IMG/VR virus record: IMGVR_UViG_3300030106_006449
Location: 1 to 39,239 of that record
Direction: 5' to 3' (one strand)
DNA length: 39,239 bases
Source: a virus
Part shown: piece by piece, positions 22,302-33,178 of the stretch
How the letters are laid out: each line of letters begins with the position of its first letter
How positions within the stretch are numbered: the stretch's first letter is position 1
The notes under the pieces: generated by a model
What the model was told of the DNA's origin: nothing
The model's database searches: none
Seen by the model: only the letters and a program-made list of their open reading frames with translations
Made by a program: the position numbers and the translations under genes

Positions 22302-23264
22302 CTAGTATCGGTACATGCGCGAGACGCTGGTACTGACGACCTCTTTGTAGACCTCCGGGTACTCCATGAACAACTTGTGGTAGTCCACGGACTTACGCTC
22401 GACGGTGTAAGAGCTGATGATCTTCTCACCATCGGACATCCCGACACCTCCCTCTCCGAGGTGGGCCTTGATGCGGACGTCGTGCTCGGCCAGTTCCTTC
22501 TTGAGCTCTTTGATCTGACGCTTGAAGTCTCGAGCCATCACGACATCGTCGAGCACCGGGTCCATGTCCACGACCTCATCCGAGTGGCCCTTAGGAAACA
22601 GGCGGGTGACGACATCGGAATCCCTGCCGCCGAGCGCCGGCTCAATGCCGTTCTCGATGTGGACCTTGTGCCAGCCAGGCAGGATGTCGAGCATGGTGTC
22701 CTGAAACGACACGTCATACGACACAGGGATAACGAAGAACTCCTTGTCGCATAGCGCGGCGAGGTAGCCCTGGCGCATGTTGCAGATCATCAACTGAAAC
22801 TGCACCTGCACCCACCACCCCTCCGTAGCGGAGTCCTCGTCAGGCTTGCCGCTGTCGGCCCAGCGCCGGAGCTCTCCCTTGAGGTAGTTGCCAGCGTGCT
22901 TGGCCTCGACGATTGCCGTCTCCCCATACACGTTGGTGGCGTACCCATCGAGGTTGCACGTCAGTCCAGGGTGGTCAGGGTGGGCCAGCACCAAGTCAGG
23001 CTTGGCGATGTCCATGCCCAGCTCCTGAGCAGCGAGCTCGAGGATCACCGGCTCCATTGTGTGGCCCAGCTGCATCTTGAAGTTCTGCTCGATGGTGCGC
23101 TGACCCGTCTTCACTTCCCAGACCTGGTATGGCGAACCGTACTTCCCCATGCTCATGACAGCAGCAGCATCGGACGAACCGATGGACTTGTGTCGGAGCT
23201 CCTGCCACTCCTCTTCACTGAGTTTGGCAGCATCGGCAATGACCTTGGCCTTTCCGATCTTCAT
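22302..23264 (-). CDS. YqaJ-type viral recombinase (lambda exonuclease family)
   Basis: A 320-residue nuclease of the YqaJ/lambda Exo family, which digests one strand from double-strand ends to expose single strands for annealing. The ATG at 23264 is chosen because AGGAGG lies 6 bases upstream; a longer frame to 23327 has no such site and crosses a hairpin. Family marks are IGSSDAAAV (residues 28-36), GHTMEP (67-72, with E71), LDGYA (D106 region), IVEAKHAG (E120 and K122 of the ExK motif) and WVQVQFQLMI with Q153, Q155 and Q157. Together with the SSB and Sak4-like genes upstream it forms a phage recombination operon. Confidence 0.88.
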   Translation of the reverse strand: MKIGKAKVIADAAKLSEEEWQELRHKSIGSSDAAAVMSMGKYGSPYQVWEVKTGQRTIEQNFKMQLGHTMEPVILELAAQELGMDIAKPDLVLAHPDHPGLTCNLDGYATNVYGETAIVEAKHAGNYLKGELRRWADSGKPDEDSATEGWWVQVQFQLMICNMRQGYLAALCDKEFFVIPVSYDVSFQDTMLDILPGWHKVHIENGIEPALGGRDSDVVTRLFPKGHSDEVVDMDPVLDDVVMARDFKRQIKELKKELAEHDVRIKAHLGEGGVGMSDGEKIISSYTVERKSVDYHKLFMEYPEVYKEVVSTSVSRMYRY

Positions 23265-23277
23265 AGTAGCCTCCTTT

Positions 23278-23328
23278 GATCCAACTGGATCGAGTGCTCG
23301 CGAGCAGAAATCTTTGCTCGCGAGCACT
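23278..23328. repeat. Perfect inverted repeats between SSB and exonuclease genes
   Basis: A 14-bp perfect stem (23293-23306 with 23315-23328, arm AGTGCTCGCGAGCA) has an 8-base loop GAAATCTT. Each arm contains the self-complementary 12-mer TGCTCGCGAGCA, so two identical palindromes stand 8 bases apart. A second palindrome, GATCCA-AC-TGGATC, lies at 23278-23291. There is no T-tract on either strand, so this is not a typical terminator. An RNA processing site, a protein binding site or a weak terminator are all possible. Confidence 0.75.
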
Positions 23329-23334
23329 AATTGC

Positions 23335-23964
23335 CTAGAACGGCAGGTCGTCGTCGTTGTACTTCTGAGCGTGCGTGCTCACCACACTGTCAACGACAGC
23401 ACCGCCGACCACCTGACCGGGCCGCATGCCGCTGCCGCCCAAAGGCTTGGCACCACGCAGCTCGTTCTCGTGCTCACCAGGACGGTTGCGCTTCTCCTTC
23501 ACGGACAGGCAAACAATGAACTGCTTGTCGTGCAGCGCGTCGACCGGCTGGCCTGCGATGAACTGCACCTGAGGTGCGCCGATCGCCGACTGAATCTCCT
23601 TGACCGCTGCTCGAGAGGCGCGCGGGGTCTTGAAGGCGTTGACGATGTTGGGACGCACGTTGACCTGACGCTGGGTGCCATCGGGCATCGTCACGTGAAT
23701 GCCCAGCCACAGGTACGTGCCAGACTTGTCGACCTTGCACCCACGGCCCCGCTCTTCAGCGGTCATGGGCACCTCCGTGCCGGTGTCATAGTTGAACACC
23801 GCACGCACGAGTGCGCCCTCCTTGTCGTAGATGACATCACGACGAGTCAGGTCGTAGCTCGAGGCCTTGATGACCGCCGGGTAATCGCCGGCTGGCACCG
23901 GCTCATTGCTGATGGTTGGACCCTCGTCCTTCGTGGCGTCGAGGGTAAGGTTACGCATATCCAT
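23335..23964 (-). CDS. ssb: Single-stranded DNA-binding protein (SSB-like)
   Basis: A 209-residue protein whose last residues are DDDLPF, the acidic tip through which bacterial and phage SSBs recruit partner proteins. The core (residues 20-150) has the beta-rich pattern of an OB-like fold with aromatic residues. Residues 150-200 are Gly/Arg/Asn-rich and probably a flexible linker. The gene starts at 23964, its ATG overlapping the stop of the Sak4-like gene. It probably coats the single strands produced by the exonuclease and during replication. The core differs from E. coli SSB, so it may belong to a phage-specific ssDNA-binding family such as DUF669-type proteins. Confidence 0.78.
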   Translation of the reverse strand: MDMRNLTLDATKDEGPTISNEPVPAGDYPAVIKASSYDLTRRDVIYDKEGALVRAVFNYDTGTEVPMTAEERGRGCKVDKSGTYLWLGIHVTMPDGTQRQVNVRPNIVNAFKTPRASRAAVKEIQSAIGAPQVQFIAGQPVDALHDKQFIVCLSVKEKRNRPGEHENELRGAKPLGGSGMRPGQVVGGAVVDSVVSTHAQKYNDDDLPF

Positions 23965-24647
23965 TACTTGGTCTCCTTAACAATGCTGTGCAGGTAGGCG
24001 AGAGAAGGCTCAATGTAGATGTCCATCGTGGACACCCGGCTCTTGGCGATGTAGCCCTCACTGGGCTGCGTCTGAAGAGCCCTGCGGACAGTGCCTTCCT
24101 CATCGGTGAAGGTCCGCAGTGGAAACAGGAAGTCGAAGTAGTGACCCACCTTCTGACTCAGCTTCTGGCCGGGACACGACGGCCCCATGAAAGCATCGCC
24201 GCTGTTGGTGTCACGCTCCATCTTTGCAGTCATGACCACGTTGAGGGGCAGGTCGCGAAACTTGCGAACAAGTTCCAGCATGCGATTCTGCATCTCGCCG
24301 TAGGCCTTGCGAGGGTCGCGGTTCTTACTCAGCTCATGAGTAAGGCAGACCTCACAAATCTCGGAGAGAGAGTCGAGGATCACCCACGTGAACGGGTAAG
24401 TCCCAGACTGCAAGTCCACCAGCACAGCTCCGAGCTCGCCGAGGGTGGACACCTCAACCGCAGTAAGGTCGAAGCCGGACAGCGTAAGCAGTCCAGCCTC
24501 GGCGCTCACCACTAAGGTGTGCTTGGCATCGGGCGTTGTCGAAGCAAGGTATGTTTTGCCTGCTCCGGCAGGGCCGTAGACCAATACTTTAAGCCGGTCG
24601 ATGCCGGCCCCGCGCGTAGAGCTCGCGCGGTCCTTGATAAAACTCAC
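23964..24647 (-). CDS. Sak4-like RecA-family ATPase (single-strand annealing/recombination)
   Basis: A 227-residue AAA/RecA-type ATPase. Walker A is GPAGAGKT at residues 25-32 and Walker B is WVILDSL at 88-94. The length and the lack of further domains match the Sak4 group of phage recombinases, which are distant RecA relatives that work with a cognate SSB. The start is GTG at 24647 with GGAG upstream, and the stop overlaps the SSB start (TAATG). The order ATPase, SSB, exonuclease in one operon strongly supports a role in recombination and recombination-dependent replication. It could be labelled only AAA_24 family by a cautious annotator. Confidence 0.82.
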   Translation of the reverse strand: MSFIKDRASSTRGAGIDRLKVLVYGPAGAGKTYLASTTPDAKHTLVVSAEAGLLTLSGFDLTAVEVSTLGELGAVLVDLQSGTYPFTWVILDSLSEICEVCLTHELSKNRDPRKAYGEMQNRMLELVRKFRDLPLNVVMTAKMERDTNSGDAFMGPSCPGQKLSQKVGHYFDFLFPLRTFTDEEGTVRRALQTQPSEGYIAKSRVSTMDIYIEPSLAYLHSIVKETK

Positions 24648-27182: not shown

Positions 27183-27881
27183 TTAATGCGCAGGAATGAC
27201 GATGTCCTTTCGGCGGTCATTCTCGCGCGCGCCGTCGCATAGATTGCAGTCGGCACACTGAACGCGCGCGCCCGCTTCCTTAGACGCAGGACAGAGAATC
27301 TCACCCGGTAGGATGTCAGACGCGGAAGCGCTCACCCGAAAGGTGCGGTACCCACGGGCGCGCGCCTCTGCGCGTTCGGTCGCGTCGTGAACAGACGCCA
27401 TCGCGAACGAAGACAGATACGCGCCTCTCCACTGATGCGTGTAACCCGTGCCGGGGTTCTCATCGAACAGGCGCCACACGTGAGAAGGCACGGCGCCCGG
27501 GTCACCGTATGACCCACGGCGCACGCGCCGACCACCGACAAGCGCGCGCGTCCCTTCGACAGGAAACACGGGCGCGTCTCGGTTAGCCTTCCACGTGGAC
27601 AGCGGTGCTTGGAACACCTTCACGTAACACGGGCGGTCACTCACGGCGCCACGCTCGAACAGATACGGACGCAATGGGCATGACCCACACACGCTCGCAT
27701 CTTCGCCCGTCTTGACTGCCACGTGTGGCGCGACGTCCGTGCGTAGAATCCACGTTTGGAGAAGGTCACCCGTCTTCGCGTTCTTCGAAGACTTAGCCAA
27801 CCCGGTTAGCAGCAGCATGATAGGGGCGCCGTCCAACTCGCTTGGACCTTCCCACACTTTGATTGTGTTGATGCGACTCAT
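27183..27881 (-). CDS. Conserved Cys-rich phage protein (DUF7227-like), function unknown
   Basis: The ATG at 27881 follows AAAGGAATCTC, giving 232 residues; a longer frame to 28100 crosses a hairpin. The pattern CGSCPLRP (about residue 66), then CYVKVFQAPLSTWKA, then GSYGDPGAVPSHVW, GYTHQWR, a SFAMASV segment, YRTFRVS and finally CPASKEAG...CADCNLC is one I recall from a family of uncharacterised phage and plasmid proteins. Two Cys groups, at about 66-85 and 197-215, suggest a metal or Fe-S site. The C-terminus ends in a basic tail. The function is unknown in the family as far as I know. GGCC is absent from its coding sequence. Confidence 0.78.
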   Translation of the reverse strand: MSRINTIKVWEGPSELDGAPIMLLLTGLAKSSKNAKTGDLLQTWILRTDVAPHVAVKTGEDASVCGSCPLRPYLFERGAVSDRPCYVKVFQAPLSTWKANRDAPVFPVEGTRALVGGRRVRRGSYGDPGAVPSHVWRLFDENPGTGYTHQWRGAYLSSFAMASVHDATERAEARARGYRTFRVSASASDILPGEILCPASKEAGARVQCADCNLCDGARENDRRKDIVIPAH

Positions 27882-27924
27882 GAGATTCCTTTGGTAGGTA
27901 GATAGACGATGCAGACTTGCACCG

Positions 27925-27957
27925 GTCAGCACGTGAGCTGTGGGCTCACGTGCTGAC
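27925..27957. other. Perfect 14-bp hairpin without T-tract
   Basis: GTCAGCACGTGAGC (27925-27938) pairs perfectly with 27944-27957 around a 5-base loop. It lies between two leftward genes, 44 bases upstream of the next start codon. No T-run follows on either strand. It could be an RNA processing or stability element, or an operator. Confidence 0.75.
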
Positions 27958-27969
27958 GCGCTAAAAGCC

Positions 27970-27986
27970 TGGGCCGCTGAAATCGA
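27970..27986. repeat. 17-base dispersed repeat, copy 2
   Basis: TGGGCCGCTGAAATCGA, one mismatch from copy 1. It lies 3 bases beyond the leftward stop of the 217-residue gene, before the 14-bp hairpin at 27925-27957. Confidence 0.7.
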
Positions 27987-27988
27987 GT

Positions 27989-28642
27989 CTACGGAACCGC
28001 GACGCACGTAAGCGCGAGCGCGTGGTGGTAGTTCTTGAGATTGTCGCTCCACTTTGGACCACAATCGCCCGGCTGGAATTGCGCCAAGCGCAACCCGCAA
28101 CCCATGGCAACCGCGATGCTATGCGCCGCCGCGTTGATACGTGCGCCGTCGCTAATGTCCCAACGCGCGAGCGCTTGAGCAGGCGTGGCGCACACGTCGA
28201 TATCAAACCAGCAGATATCAAAGTGCACTGCGTCGAACGTGTTCACGTGCACAACACCACAGTGGTCGAACGCGATGAAGCCGCCGCCCATCTGCTCAAG
28301 GCGCGCCGCTTGATAGTCGCGGTAGTACTCCGCTTCCGCTTCCGCGTCGAACAAGTCATCCTGTGTGAGCGGGCGCGTGCTGTGGTCCTCGAGCGTTTCG
28401 CGGATGTCTGGGTGAATGTCCTCAAGCACGTCACAAAGGAGGTCACCAAGCGAGTCTCCCGTGCGGTCAATGTGGTCAGGGAGGTCAACCGCGCGCCACG
28501 CTTGGGGCGCGTCACCGACAAGCTTGTATTGAACGCGCACGTAACCAAGCTCAAGAGCGGGCGCCGTGCGAGCGTCGCGATAGGCGCCGCCCTCGAGGGT
28601 GTGAGGCGCGTCGAACTGCGTGGGGTAGTTGAGGTCACTCAT
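27989..28642 (-). CDS. Unknown first gene of the leftward arm, 217 aa
   Basis: A 217-residue acidic protein starting at ATG 28642 with GGAG 7 bases upstream. The N-terminal half is Asp/Glu-rich (GDSLGDLLCDVLEDIHPDIR). The C-terminal half is hydrophobic with many His, Cys and Asp residues (FDHCGVVHVNTFDAVHFDIC and the following WFDIDVC), which might bind a metal. It is the first gene after the leftward promoter, a position often used for host-takeover or anti-defence proteins. No family was recognised. GGCC is absent from its coding sequence. Confidence 0.7.
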   Translation of the reverse strand: MSDLNYPTQFDAPHTLEGGAYRDARTAPALELGYVRVQYKLVGDAPQAWRAVDLPDHIDRTGDSLGDLLCDVLEDIHPDIRETLEDHSTRPLTQDDLFDAEAEAEYYRDYQAARLEQMGGGFIAFDHCGVVHVNTFDAVHFDICWFDIDVCATPAQALARWDISDGARINAAAHSIAVAMGCGLRLAQFQPGDCGPKWSDNLKNYHHALALTCVAVP

Positions 28643-29270: not shown

Positions 29271-29315
29271 GACCCCCCTTGGACCCCCCCTTTAGGGGGG
29301 GGGTCCTGGGGGGTC
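29271..29315. terminator. C/G-tract hairpin between regulator and helicase genes
   Basis: A long nested stem: GACCCCCC (29271-29278) with GGGGGGTC (29308-29315), and GGACCCCCCC (29281-29290) with seven of the nine G plus TCC (29297-29306). No T-tract follows, so this is a weak candidate terminator. The G-runs (9, 6, then GGG at 29317-29319) on the rightward strand could also form a G-quadruplex. A short GC hairpin (29335-29350) follows before the DnaB ribosome binding site. Confidence 0.6.
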
Positions 29316-29365
29316 TGGGTAGCAAACTAGCTAACGCGCGCACCCGCGCGCGAGGGGAGAGCGAG

Positions 29366-30682
29366 ATGCAAGGATTGCCTCACTCCGCAGATGCGGAGAG
29401 AGAGGTGCTTGGAGCAGTGTTGCTTCGAGCCGATATGGCACCCAAGTTGGTCGAGGCTGGGTTGCGTCCTCAGGACTTCCACCTCGAGCGCAACCAGCTG
29501 GTGTGTCGTGCCGTGCTTGACCTCGTTGAGCTGGGGACGCCTGTTGACCCTGCGACCGTCAGGGAGAGGTTGCTCGACCGGAAGGAGTGGAACAGGGCCG
29601 GAGAGTTTCGGACACTGAGCGAGCTGATGGACAAGGGCGCAGTGACTGGCGCGTTTGAGCATATGTGCGACGTGGTGAAGAAGTACGCGTTGCGCCGGCT
29701 GCTCGTGAGTCATGGCTGGGACGTGTCGAAGATGGGTCTGGAGTCTGATGACCCGGAGATTAGCCTTGAAAAGGCGCACACTGGGCTGAGGGAGATCGCC
29801 GAAAGCGGCAACCTGCACACAGGCGTGACGATGCGCGATGGCGTGCGCGGGTATATGGACTACATCAACCGAGTGCAGGCTGGGGAGATCACAGACACCC
29901 GGTTGCCCACAGGAATCCGAAGCCTAGACGACCACCTGGGTGGAGGGCTCCGCACCGGATGGCAGGTTGTGGTGATGAGCGCTGCTGGCCACGGCAAGAC
30001 AGCGTTCGCTGTCAACAACCTCGCTCTGTCTGCTGCTAAAGCTGGTCACCCTGTAGTGATTTGCAGCCTCGAGATGCAGCCTAAAGAGGTGATTGGCCGC
30101 ATGGTCGCCGCTGAATCAGGCGTGCCCGTGCACGTGCACGACCGCGCAGGCCTCGATCCTTACGACCTATCGAGACTTATGGGCGCAGCTGACCAAGTCT
30201 ACAACCTGCCGATACGGATAATCGGCGCGAGACACGGGAATATCGAGTCGATTACGTCCGTAGCCCGCCAAGTGAAAGCCCAATACGGCTCACTGGGCAT
30301 GGTTGTGGTGGATTATCTGCAGCTCATGAAGTCGACAGACAACGCTGAGGCCTCGAGCGAGGAAAAAATCTCGACAAACTCCGGGGCCCTAAAGCTGCTC
30401 GCAAACGAGCTCGACTGCGTGTCTGTCGTATTGAGCCAGCCTGTGCTCAGCGCCAAGCGAGACAAGAAGAGGCCGTCTATTACCCAGGCCAAAGGGTCTG
30501 GGTCTATCGAGGATGACGCCGATTTGGCGCTGATCCCGTGGTTGCCGTTCAAAGTTGATGACACCGCGCCACGAAGTAATGCTGAGATGGGCATGGACAA
30601 GTTCAGACACGGCCCTCAGCAGAACTTGAGTTGCGAGGAGATACGATGGAACGGCAAAAACATGAGGTTTGAGCAGATATGA
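29366..30682 (+). CDS. dnaB: Replicative DNA helicase, DnaB family
   Basis: A 438-residue DnaB-type hexameric helicase that unwinds the replication fork. The ATG at 29366 follows GAGGGGAG by 6 bases. The N-terminal domain (residues 3-110, starting LPHSADAEREVLGAVL) is the usual DnaB N-domain. The motor domain has Walker A SAAGHGKT at 205-212, E236 of the SLEM motif, Walker B VVVDYLQL at 313-320, VLSQ near 355, and the KGSGSIEDDAD motif at 376-386, where K replaces the common R. No loader or polymerase gene was seen, so it probably self-loads or uses host loader and polymerase. Confidence 0.93.
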   Translation: MQGLPHSADAEREVLGAVLLRADMAPKLVEAGLRPQDFHLERNQLVCRAVLDLVELGTPVDPATVRERLLDRKEWNRAGEFRTLSELMDKGAVTGAFEHMCDVVKKYALRRLLVSHGWDVSKMGLESDDPEISLEKAHTGLREIAESGNLHTGVTMRDGVRGYMDYINRVQAGEITDTRLPTGIRSLDDHLGGGLRTGWQVVVMSAAGHGKTAFAVNNLALSAAKAGHPVVICSLEMQPKEVIGRMVAAESGVPVHVHDRAGLDPYDLSRLMGAADQVYNLPIRIIGARHGNIESITSVARQVKAQYGSLGMVVVDYLQLMKSTDNAEASSEEKISTNSGALKLLANELDCVSVVLSQPVLSAKRDKKRPSITQAKGSGSIEDDADLALIPWLPFKVDDTAPRSNAEMGMDKFRHGPQQNLSCEEIRWNGKNMRFEQI

Positions 30683-30891
30683 GCGCAATCGACCAGGTAC
30701 TGGCCCTGCTTTACGAAATGGAAGATGAAATGGGCACGCGAGATGTGGCTGTCGAATTGGGCATGAGCCTGACAACCGCACAGCGCTCATTGGCGCGGCT
30801 CCGAGAAGAGGGATGGATTAGCGGCAGAAGGCAAAGGCCTGTGCCTGGGACTAACGAGAGAACGACAACTGTATGGAGGGTAGCGAGATGA
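30679..30891 (+). CDS. Small winged-helix DNA-binding protein, 70 aa
   Basis: A 70-residue protein, ATG at 30679 overlapping the helicase stop (ATGA). The pattern LLYEMEDEMGTRDVAVELGM, then TTAQRSLARLREEGWISGRR, ends with a TTTVWRVAR strand. It is that of a winged helix: helix, HTH and a basic wing. It may regulate transcription or act in replication with the helicase. The stop overlaps the next ATG (ATGA). Confidence 0.7.
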   Translation: MSAIDQVLALLYEMEDEMGTRDVAVELGMSLTTAQRSLARLREEGWISGRRQRPVPGTNERTTTVWRVAR

Positions 30892-31868
30892 ACCGCGAAG
30901 AACTCGACAAAATTCTGGATGGGCGGCGAATCGTCGTTTCTGTTTCTGGCGGCAAGGATTCTACGGCCTGCTGCTTGTATTTGATGGAAATGGGGTATGA
31001 GCCCCATGAATTCGACCGCATTTTTTTTGATACAGGCTGGGAGCACCCGCTGCTCTATGAGTATGTGCGGCAAGACCTGCCGGATATCGTGGGTCCAATC
31101 GAGAGCTTGTATGCTGAGATTGAGCTCGACGAAGAGCTGGTGCCTGTTGCCGAGCAGTTCGAGAAAGAGCTCGGTGTGCCTTACTCGTCGATGGTCAGGC
31201 TGGTTTTGCGCAAGGGCATGTTCCCCAGCCGGCAGAAGCGGTGGTGTACTGACTGGCTGAAGGTGCGCGTTTCTCAGAAATACTTCCACGAGTCCGACGT
31301 CCCAATGGTCAATGTCGTTGGTATTCGCGCTGAGGAGAGCAAGGCGCGGGCGCTGATGACTGAGTGGGAGTTTGCTCCAAAGTGGGATCTCGACGTCTGG
31401 CGACCTCTTATCGACTGGTCGACCCAGCAAGTCATCGATATTCACCAGCGCCATGGCGTTCGTCCGTGCCGCCTGTATCTCGAGCAAAACGCAGACCGAG
31501 TTGGGTGTTACCCATGCATTTACTCTCGCAAAGCCGAGATTCGGCAGATGAGCGACTACACGCCGGAGCGAATCGACTTGATCGAGAGGCTCGAGGAAGT
31601 CGTTAAGGGGCTTGCTGAGAAGCGCTACGCTGCTCAAGGCGAGACGTTTGAGTCTTTGAACATGGCTCACCCTGGGTGGTTTCAGACACCAAAGCGCACC
31701 TACAAAGACGACGGCAGCACCTCTGGCGAGTGCTGGCCTATCCGCAAGGTTGTGTCGTGGAGTCGCACAACTCGTGGTGGCCACATGGACCAGATGGAGT
31801 TGTTCACAGACCCATTGGGCCACCAGGGCTGCGTTAGGTGGGGCATGTGCGATACGGGGACGAAGTAA
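30888..31868 (+). CDS. PP-loop ATPase, PAPS reductase/DndC-like family
   Basis: A 326-residue member of the adenine nucleotide alpha-hydrolase-like superfamily. The PP-loop SGGKDS lies at residues 20-25 and activates substrates by adenylation. Further family marks are GIRAEES at 145-151, WRPLIDW at 171-177 and GCYPCIYSRKAE at 206-217. C120 and the pair C207/C210 could bind metal, an Fe-S cluster or sulfur. Relatives include PAPS reductases and the DndC protein of DNA phosphorothioation. A role in making a sulfur-containing nucleotide or tRNA or DNA modification is possible, but no partner genes of known systems are present. The next gene is a second, degenerate relative. True PAPS reduction is unlikely, because the family is broad. 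Confidence 0.82.
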   Translation: MNREELDKILDGRRIVVSVSGGKDSTACCLYLMEMGYEPHEFDRIFFDTGWEHPLLYEYVRQDLPDIVGPIESLYAEIELDEELVPVAEQFEKELGVPYSSMVRLVLRKGMFPSRQKRWCTDWLKVRVSQKYFHESDVPMVNVVGIRAEESKARALMTEWEFAPKWDLDVWRPLIDWSTQQVIDIHQRHGVRPCRLYLEQNADRVGCYPCIYSRKAEIRQMSDYTPERIDLIERLEEVVKGLAEKRYAAQGETFESLNMAHPGWFQTPKRTYKDDGSTSGECWPIRKVVSWSRTTRGGHMDQMELFTDPLGHQGCVRWGMCDTGTK

Positions 31869-32644
31869 TGAAGCGCATCGTCATGTTCTCTGGAGGGGCC
31901 GGCAGCTGGGGCGCCGCAAAGCGCATAGCTGAGTGGCACGGCACCGATGACCTTGTTCTGCTGTTTGCCGACACGCTGATGGAAGACGAAGACCTGTACC
32001 GGTTTCTCGAAGAGGCCGCGCAGGACGTTGGTGGCGAGTTGATCAAAATCGCAGAAGGGCGCGACCCGTGGCAGGTGTTTTTCGATCGCAAGTACCTTGG
32101 CAACACGCGCGTCGACCCGTGCAGCTACGTGCTCAAGCGCAAGTTCATTCGAAACTGGCTGGAGGAGAACTACGCTCCAGACGAGTGCGAGGTGTACCTG
32201 GGTATCGATATCGACGAGGAGCATCGATTCCACAGGGCCGTGAGTTACTGGGAGCCGTACACCGTCCGGGCTCCGCTAATCGAGGACGAGCCTGTGTTTC
32301 GTCATGACGTGAAGGCCATGATGAAAGAGGCGGGCATCGAGGAGCCTCGCCTGTACAAGATGGGCTTCCCCCACAACAACTGTGGGGGATTTTGCATCAA
32401 GGCTGGCATGAGCCACTTTGCAAACCTTCTGCGCCATTTGCCTGATAGGTACGCCTACCACGAGCAAAAGGAGCAGGAGCTGCGGGAATATTTGGGTAAG
32501 GACGTCGCCATATTGCGTGATAGAACGGGTGGCGAAATTAAGCCCATGACCATGCGCGACTTGCGCGAAAAAATTGAATCGCAGCCGCAGCAGATTCCTT
32601 TGTTTGACTGGGGTGGCTGCGGCTGCTTCAGCGGGGAAGAATGA
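31868..32644 (+). CDS. PP-loop-related protein with altered loop SGGAGSW
   Basis: A 258-residue protein, ATG at 31868 overlapping the previous stop (TAATG). The N-terminal loop reads SGGAGSW (residues 8-14), where the Lys-Asp of SGGKDS is replaced by Ala-Gly. Later, FADT (33-36) and the GIDIDEEHR motif (112-120) keep the fold. The NNCGGFC motif (170-176) and GGCGCF near the C-terminus (C251, C253) supply four Cys that may hold an Fe-S cluster or zinc. I recall this type of protein (SGG-x-x-SW plus HNNCGG and CGC ends) as an uncharacterised phage and mobile-element family. Pairing with an intact PP-loop protein suggests a two-protein enzyme. Confidence 0.78.
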   Translation: MKRIVMFSGGAGSWGAAKRIAEWHGTDDLVLLFADTLMEDEDLYRFLEEAAQDVGGELIKIAEGRDPWQVFFDRKYLGNTRVDPCSYVLKRKFIRNWLEENYAPDECEVYLGIDIDEEHRFHRAVSYWEPYTVRAPLIEDEPVFRHDVKAMMKEAGIEEPRLYKMGFPHNNCGGFCIKAGMSHFANLLRHLPDRYAYHEQKEQELREYLGKDVAILRDRTGGEIKPMTMRDLREKIESQPQQIPLFDWGGCGCFSGEE

Positions 32645-32820
32645 ACAAGGCGTTTTGGATCTGTTTCGAGTGCGACCATCGACAGTGGTTTGCTGGACCG
32701 TGCGAAGTGTGCGGCGGCAGTTGCGAAAAGGTAGGAGGCAGCGATGCGTCTATACATGGGCATAGACCCCGGATATTCAGGGGCCGTAGCGGTAGTTGGC
32801 GAAGACGGGTCGTTTCATGA
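32641..32820 (+). CDS. Small zinc-ribbon protein, 59 aa, overlapping the resolvase gene
   Basis: The ATG at 32641 overlaps the previous stop (ATGA) and opens a frame of 59 residues. Its N-terminus has CxxC pairs at C8/C11 and C21/C24, plus C28, which is a zinc-ribbon layout. The C-terminus is Arg/Gly/Ser-rich. The last 77 bases overlap the start of the RuvC-like gene in another frame. Coupling to the PP-loop pair and the perfect Cys spacing argue that it is real; it may be a third component of that set. Confidence 0.62.
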   Translation: MNKAFWICFECDHRQWFAGPCEVCGGSCEKVGGSDASIHGHRPRIFRGRSGSWRRRVVS

Positions 32821-33178
32821 CCTAGTGCGGCTCGGAGAAACCGAGCACGACATAGCCGGCTTCGTTGAGCGAAACGCCAAGCACGTGGAGTTCGCTGTGC
32901 TTGAGCGCGTATCTGCGATGCCGCGACAAGGCGTGTCGTCTACGTTCAAGTTCGGCACGAGCTACGGGTTCTGTCGCGGACTGCTTGTTTGCAGCAAGGT
33001 TCCCTTTGAGGCCGTGACCCCTGCGACGTGGCAGGGCGCTATGAAGTGCAGGTCAAAGGGAGACAAGAACGTGACCAAGGCTGCTGCCCAGCGTTTGTTC
33101 CCTGACCAAAAGGTGGTGCACGCCACCGCAGACGCTATGCTGATTGCAGAGTACGCGAGAAGGTGCGCCCAAAGATGA
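32744..33178 (+). CDS. RuvC-like Holliday junction resolvase
   Basis: A 144-residue protein of the RuvC/RNase H-like fold. MGIDPGYSGA at the N-terminus carries the first acidic residue (D8), LERVSAM the second (E54), and HATADAMLIAEYA the C-terminal His and Asp (H126, D130). It starts at ATG 32744 with AGGAGG upstream. It probably cuts branched DNA before packaging and completes recombination started by the Sak4/SSB/exonuclease set. Its length is typical of phage RuvC proteins. The stop overlaps the next ATG (ATGA). Confidence 0.87.
   Translation: MRLYMGIDPGYSGAVAVVGEDGSFHDLVRLGETEHDIAGFVERNAKHVEFAVLERVSAMPRQGVSSTFKFGTSYGFCRGLLVCSKVPFEAVTPATWQGAMKCRSKGDKNVTKAAAQRLFPDQKVVHATADAMLIAEYARRCAQR

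Follow-up and report, generated by a model that had tools for sequence, protein, structure and literature searches.

Two divergent PAPS-reductase-like genes adjoin in the replication and recombination block of a phage

The window analyzed here is the whole 39,239-base viral record IMGVR_UViG_3300030106_006449 (IMG/VR). Within it, three consecutive open reading frames (ORFs), referred to as gene 1, gene 2, and the ribbon, are flanked by a DnaB-like helicase gene upstream and a RuvC-like Holliday junction resolvase gene downstream (Table 1). The original prediction had placed them between replication and recombination genes, and this setting was confirmed, as were the positions of the three ORFs and their motifs SGGKDS, SGGAGSW, and CFEC...CEVC, respectively. 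Gene 1 starts with the ATG at 30888 and its last base is 31868; its stop codon overlaps the start of gene 2 in the sequence TAATG. On the minus strand, a RecE-like exonuclease (22302-23327) and a Sak4-like annealing protein (23964-24647) form a recombination module separate from the RuvC-like resolvase. Another minus-strand gene (27183-28100) encodes a Cys-rich protein matching phrog_2554 (E 2.8e-66), to which no function is assigned.

Table 1. Genes of the analyzed block, with positions in the window and the evidence for each assignment.
Feature	Position	Strand	Evidence or remark
DnaB-like replicative helicase	29279..30682	+	PF03796 E 1.8e-44; phrog_19 E 1.8e-72
Small winged-helix gene	30679-30891		between helicase and gene 1
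Gene 1, 326-aa PAPS-reductase-like protein, intact PP-loop SGGKDS	30888..31868	+	PF01507, phrog_424
Gene 2, 258-aa PAPS-reductase-like protein, altered loop SGGxGS	31868..32644	+	phrog_424
Ribbon, possible 59-aa CxxC...CxxC zinc ribbon	32641..32820	+	sequence alone
RuvC-like Holliday junction resolvase	32744..33178	+	phrog_1770 E 7.3e-24

A Pfam profile search with gene 1 gave PF01507 at E 2.9e-20, and phrog_424 is matched by both gene 1 (E 3.1e-50) and gene 2 (E 2.1e-51); with E-values this low, a chance resemblance is excluded. The same PHROG contains NinC of phage lambda, orf84 of phage 186, and PptA of a Vibrio phage. AlphaFold2 models, built on environmental relatives, are confident, with a pLDDT of 88.0 (gene 1) and 92.9 (gene 2). 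The best solved matches of both models are PAPS/APS reductases, namely the PAPS reductase 2oq2 for gene 1 (Z 15.7, 197 aligned residues, 2.8 Å) and 7rge for gene 2 (Z 12.7, 167 aligned residues, 3.8 Å). Lower-ranked matches include sulfur-transfer enzymes, such as TtuA and LarE, as well as YcfA, which binds nucleotides. These ranks refer to a library that ends in April 2026 and does not have PDB 21fy, discussed below, among its entries. The predicted PP-loop identity holds for gene 1 and gene 2 alike, both having the PAPS-reductase fold and kinship to DndC and SspD.

In an alignment of 54 relatives of gene 2, the loop residues S8, G10, and S13 are invariant, and the position of the canonical Asp is occupied by Gly, Ala, Cys, Ser, Thr, or Val, in not a single case by Asp (0/54). 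The core cysteines C172 and C176 are present in 54/54 sequences; C85 and the two cysteines of the C-terminal dyad, C251 and C253 (GCGC), are present in 53/54. Among 40 relatives of gene 1, SGGKDS is kept with the exception of one glycine. C120, C207, and C210 occur in all 40, and C315 and C321 in each of the 35 rows that reach them. The paired and abundant cysteines predicted for both proteins are thus conserved across these two sets of relatives. The loop of gene 2 had been regarded as broken. Since loop and cysteines are invariant across relatives, the altered loop is a fixed trait and signature of the subfamily, and a decayed pseudo-enzyme is ruled out. The three-Cys layout resembles that of cluster-bearing thiolases, and this site of gene 1 and gene 2 may bind a cluster. 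DndC has also been described with a three-Cys core and a further Cys dyad (PMC10853773).

In a maximum-likelihood tree, the two proteins fall into separate, old clades (support 100/99): PptA accompanies gene 2, whereas orf84 and NinC accompany gene 1. The two proteins of our phage are approximately 19% identical in a profile alignment. Together, this identity and the split of the clades rule out a recent duplication.

We surveyed the co-occurrence of the two subfamilies from both sides. The gene 2 family comprises 494 confirmed loci in IMG/VR. A gene-1-subfamily protein was found near gene 2 in none of approximately 98 viral contigs other than this phage, at none of 80 loci in bacterial genomes, and nowhere in 25 whole gene-2 records, where the weak matches were gene 2 itself. 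When 50 gene-2 records were searched with PF01507, weak matches of the model to gene 2 blurred the result. Seen from the other side, gene 2 is missing within 4 kb of gene-1 relatives at all 79 loci. The upper 95% bound for co-occurrence elsewhere is about 3-4%. L036, at 79% identity the relative closest to gene 2, has neither gene 1 nor the ribbon in the neighbouring DNA examined, and its setting is preserved, with genes for replication, a terminase, and a Holliday junction resolvase around it. The closest relative of gene 1 (L122, 65%) has no gene 2 nearby. These surveys rule out an obligate pair. They also do not support the original prediction, which treated the three genes as coupled and the pair with the ribbon as a possible modification system: none of the pairings recurs in relatives, and the two genes occur separately, an outcome that the prediction itself had named as refuting. 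Because the pair is absent elsewhere and its members belong to separate clades, their adjacency is most simply a case of mosaicism in the replication/recombination block. What is unusual about the locus is that two representatives of this common but little understood phage family lie next to each other.

A different PAPS-like gene adjoins the gene-2 relative at a few loci (L106, L022, and L064, which are viral, as well as L242/L244 and L255); none of these neighbours belongs to the subfamily of gene 1. At L255 (5913-7754) and L242 (2954-4870) the neighbour is a protein of 614-639 aa, in which an intact PAPS-reductase domain is preceded by zinc-ribbon-like Cys motifs at the N-terminus and followed by a ferredoxin-like 4Fe-4S region at the C-terminus. 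In Bacillus-type genomes, a second gene-2-like protein, of 508-514 aa, is encoded just upstream of the gene-2 relative (L232:3347-4870, L236:2784-4325, L260:3273-4820). The one at L232 reads as two PptA-like modules within a single chain, with the loops TGGVASS and then SGGAGSA.

The ribbon is less well founded. Its start overlaps the end of gene 2 at ATGA, and a plausible ribosome-binding sequence is present. Its first 34 codons lie between gene 2 and the resolvase gene and its last 77 bases inside the latter, and GC3 in the overlapping part is 0.42, compared to 0.66-0.73 for the neighbouring genes. Searches against Pfam, PHROG, PADLOC, and NCBIfam gave zero matches; relatives were found only in a 99.99% identical contig of this same phage, and no ribbon was found beside gene 1 or gene 2 in their relatives. 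RNA structure around it does not exceed that of shuffled sequences (z -0.94). Of the predicted zinc ribbon, the ORF with its CFEC...CEVC motif stands. The full 59-residue gene is unsupported, given the lack of relatives, the resolvase overlap, and the GC3 value. It is uncertain whether the ribbon is a real gene, and it is not part of any conserved system.

The neighbours of gene-2 relatives are diverse, and some are nucleotide kinases. No recurrent partner gene emerged: counts for any single PHROG stayed at or below 4 of 93 neighbours on the upstream side and 3 of 99 on the downstream side. Some gene-1 relatives are adjoined by DNA methyltransferases. phrog_116 accounts for 10 of 137 neighbours of gene-1 relatives and for no more than 3 of 192 neighbours in the gene 2 set (Fisher p 0.018), a comparison in which many gene-1 loci are interrelated and the E-value limits differed between the sets. 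A cruder count of methyltransferase motifs gave 6 for gene 1 and 1 for gene 2, of 79, and the window contains no PF01555 gene. In view of these points, we consider the methyltransferase association of gene-1 relatives a lead. In the genome carrying the 65% relative of gene 1, an overlapping block (L122:2516-4987) consists of a QueC-like gene and an N4/N6 DNA methyltransferase gene, followed by the gene-1 relative, and suggests a DNA-modification neighbourhood. Both this relative (L122:4001-4984) and 186 orf84 (L119:2962-3963) align with PDLC03333, a type II methyltransferase model of PADLOC. The aligned model positions, approximately 41-224, hint that some of the methyltransferases it covers carry a fused PAPS-like domain.

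Among solved structures, PptA, chain C of PDB 21fy, is the one most closely related to gene 2 (E 6e-12 with the single sequence, E 5.3e-30 with the family profile, 99.5% in hhalign). The entry holds two PptA chains and also lists the sequence of the E. coli cysteine desulfurase IscS. Since a search with E. coli IscS also returns 21fy, the entry contains both proteins. Over 203 aligned residues, PptA shows 100% identity with a protein encoded by Vibrio phage vB_VhaP_VH-5, the gene for which adjoins the RNA polymerase gene; neither an annotated dnd or ssp gene nor a gene 1 is found near it. No paper on PptA was found, by name or by likely system. PptA and gene 2 share their clade (100/99), phrog_424, an altered PP-loop, the core cysteines, and a C-terminal Cys pair, and the cysteine layout of PptA (CTTQLKRK, NNCVGC, and the C-terminal ECSLVC) is like that of gene 2. 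They differ in that the identity is approximately 27%, the loop is SCGAPS in PptA and SGGAGS in gene 2, and the core cysteines form CxxC in PptA and CxxxC in gene 2. The idea of sulfur transfer is well anchored, because PptA sits in a PDB entry together with a host-type IscS. Binding of IscS by gene 2 itself is extrapolated from PptA, as the identity is only about 27%. No cysteine desulfurase was found in the phage record, in a search whose control matched 14/14, which is consistent with use of the host's enzyme.

On balance, we lean towards the reading that two separate members of phrog_424 came to adjoin by mosaicism, and that each is likely a stand-alone sulfur-transfer enzyme using host parts. 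By analogy to PptA, the IscS of the host is probably the sulfur source of gene 2, which would supply a substrate, perhaps DNA or nucleotides. It would dock on the desulfurase and receive the persulfide sulfur on its cysteines, i.e., the C-terminal dyad C251/C253 and the core C85/C172/C176. From these residues, the sulfur would move on to a nucleotide or nucleic acid bound as substrate at the altered SGGxxS loop, and ATP hydrolysis of the kind performed by SGGxDS enzymes would probably not be involved. Gene 1, with SGGKDS, C120/C207/C210, and the dyad C315/C321, would activate a substrate of its own with ATP and then thiolate it in a similar way. We infer both this flow of sulfur and its target, which could be the DNA backbone, a base, a nucleotide, or tRNA. 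DNA or nucleotides are favoured because of the replication setting, the methyltransferases near some gene-1 relatives, and the kinship to DndC and SspD, and tRNA and anti-IscS roles are live.

Thiolation of phage tRNA or of free nucleotides, as by TtuA, NcsA, MnmA, or possibly YcfA, with a substrate other than DNA, is possible, though we hold it unlikely. It is in agreement with the three-Cys layout, with the nucleotide kinases adjoining some gene-2 relatives, and with fold neighbours that include the tRNA thiolases NcsA, TtuA, ThiI, and MnmA in addition to nucleotide-binding YcfA. However, the fold alone does not reveal a substrate, sulfonucleotide reductases rank first among the fold matches, the closest matches in the defence library are SspD and DndC, and an RNA-binding domain was not seen in either protein with Pfam or NCBIfam. 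Gene 2 might also modify nothing and act against the host or its defence, binding IscS and blocking or diverting the host's sulfur traffic, with phosphorothioate restriction, tRNA thiolation, and Fe-S assembly as conceivable targets; this too we regard as unlikely, slightly more so. The one hard fact about PptA, its occurrence in a common PDB entry with IscS, would suit such a protein, and so would the lack of the PP-loop Asp in every member of the gene 2 family. A phage protein antagonising a Dnd system is reported (PMC12345140). On the other hand, core cysteines, C-terminal dyad, and loop are kept across distant phages, a pattern that would argue for retained catalysis, since a pure inhibitor would have no need for conserved cysteines or a conserved loop.

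Distinctly improbable in our estimate is a two-subunit enzyme in which gene 1 adenylates and gene 2 carries sulfur from IscS, such that DNA or nucleotides are modified. The overlapping stop and start codons suggest co-translation, and five of the loci described above (L106, L022, L064, L242, L255) pair a gene-2 relative with another PAPS-like gene, which at L242 and L255 has Cys-rich ribbon-like and ferredoxin-like regions. Nevertheless, the two subfamilies were together at none of the viral, bacterial, and gene-1 loci surveyed, the closest relatives of both genes are without the partner in the DNA examined, and PptA is alone in its phage neighbourhood. We give an equally small chance to the variant that the divergent pair became a heteromer in this phage, in which gene 2 relays sulfur from host IscS to the ATP-using gene 1. 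If true, a minimal system powered by the host would place sulfur on phage DNA or nucleotides and do without DndD/E or SspB/C. Least probable are assimilatory PAPS reductases (CysH), i.e., auxiliary metabolic genes that supply sulfite to the cysteine synthesis of the host. Many phage homologues are so annotated, and the fold is that of PAPS reductases. CysH has an ECGLH-type catalytic motif at its C-terminal end. This motif is absent from both proteins, gene 1 scores 20.8 bits against a cut-off of 165.1 with the NCBIfam cysH model, gene 2 gives no match, and the genes around both serve replication and recombination. The label of sulfate-assimilation gene is routinely given to NinC, to orf84, and to relatives found by the hundreds in environmental data; the evidence presented here points to sulfur transfer instead. 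The link from gene 2 via PptA to IscS, together with the conserved cysteines, makes the function of a large, long-unexplained phage family testable, while the tandem arrangement of gene 1 and gene 2 itself adds little.

DndC and SspD are PAPS-reductase-like sulfur-transfer subunits like gene 1 and gene 2. In PADLOC, the SspD model matches gene 1 with E 3.2e-23 and gene 2 with E 1.2e-13, in a library that has no cut-off; NinC, PptA, and orf84 match this model about as well. The PADLOC DndC model matches gene 1 weakly (E 2e-8), and with the DndC equivalog of NCBIfam gene 1 reaches 28 bits against a cut-off of 290.4 and gene 2 gives no match. DndC systems carry DndD and a desulfurase, neither of which was found in the phage record, where a host enzyme could replace the desulfurase and which may be incomplete. 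The search for DndD returned no match in the record, its control matching 9/14, below the cut-off; for DndE and for SspB (DUF4007) the record gave no match, and the control searches also matched nowhere. The prediction that no other Dnd protein is present can thus be upheld for the desulfurase and DndD, whose controls matched, and not for DndE and DUF4007/SspB, whose controls were silent. Neither gene 1 nor gene 2 qualifies as DndC, with the equivalog score far under its cut-off and DndD and the desulfurase not found.

Within the family, orf84 of phage 186, a CysH-like protein of a P2-like phage, shares the clade, the SGGKDS loop, and the cysteines of gene 1. It is approximately 33% identical to gene 1, precedes the A replication gene, and is annotated as of unknown function and not essential. 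Lambda NinC is homologous to both genes and belongs to the same PHROG, with hhalign values of 99.3% for gene 1 (E 6.5e-21) and 97.8% for gene 2. It is nonessential after correction for polarity on Q (PMC10695390). NinC has the loop SGGRTS, and the tree places it with gene 1, not gene 2. In the lambda stretch examined it is the only annotated member of the family, in contrast to two in our phage; its site between the replication genes and a junction-specific nuclease is of the same kind as here.
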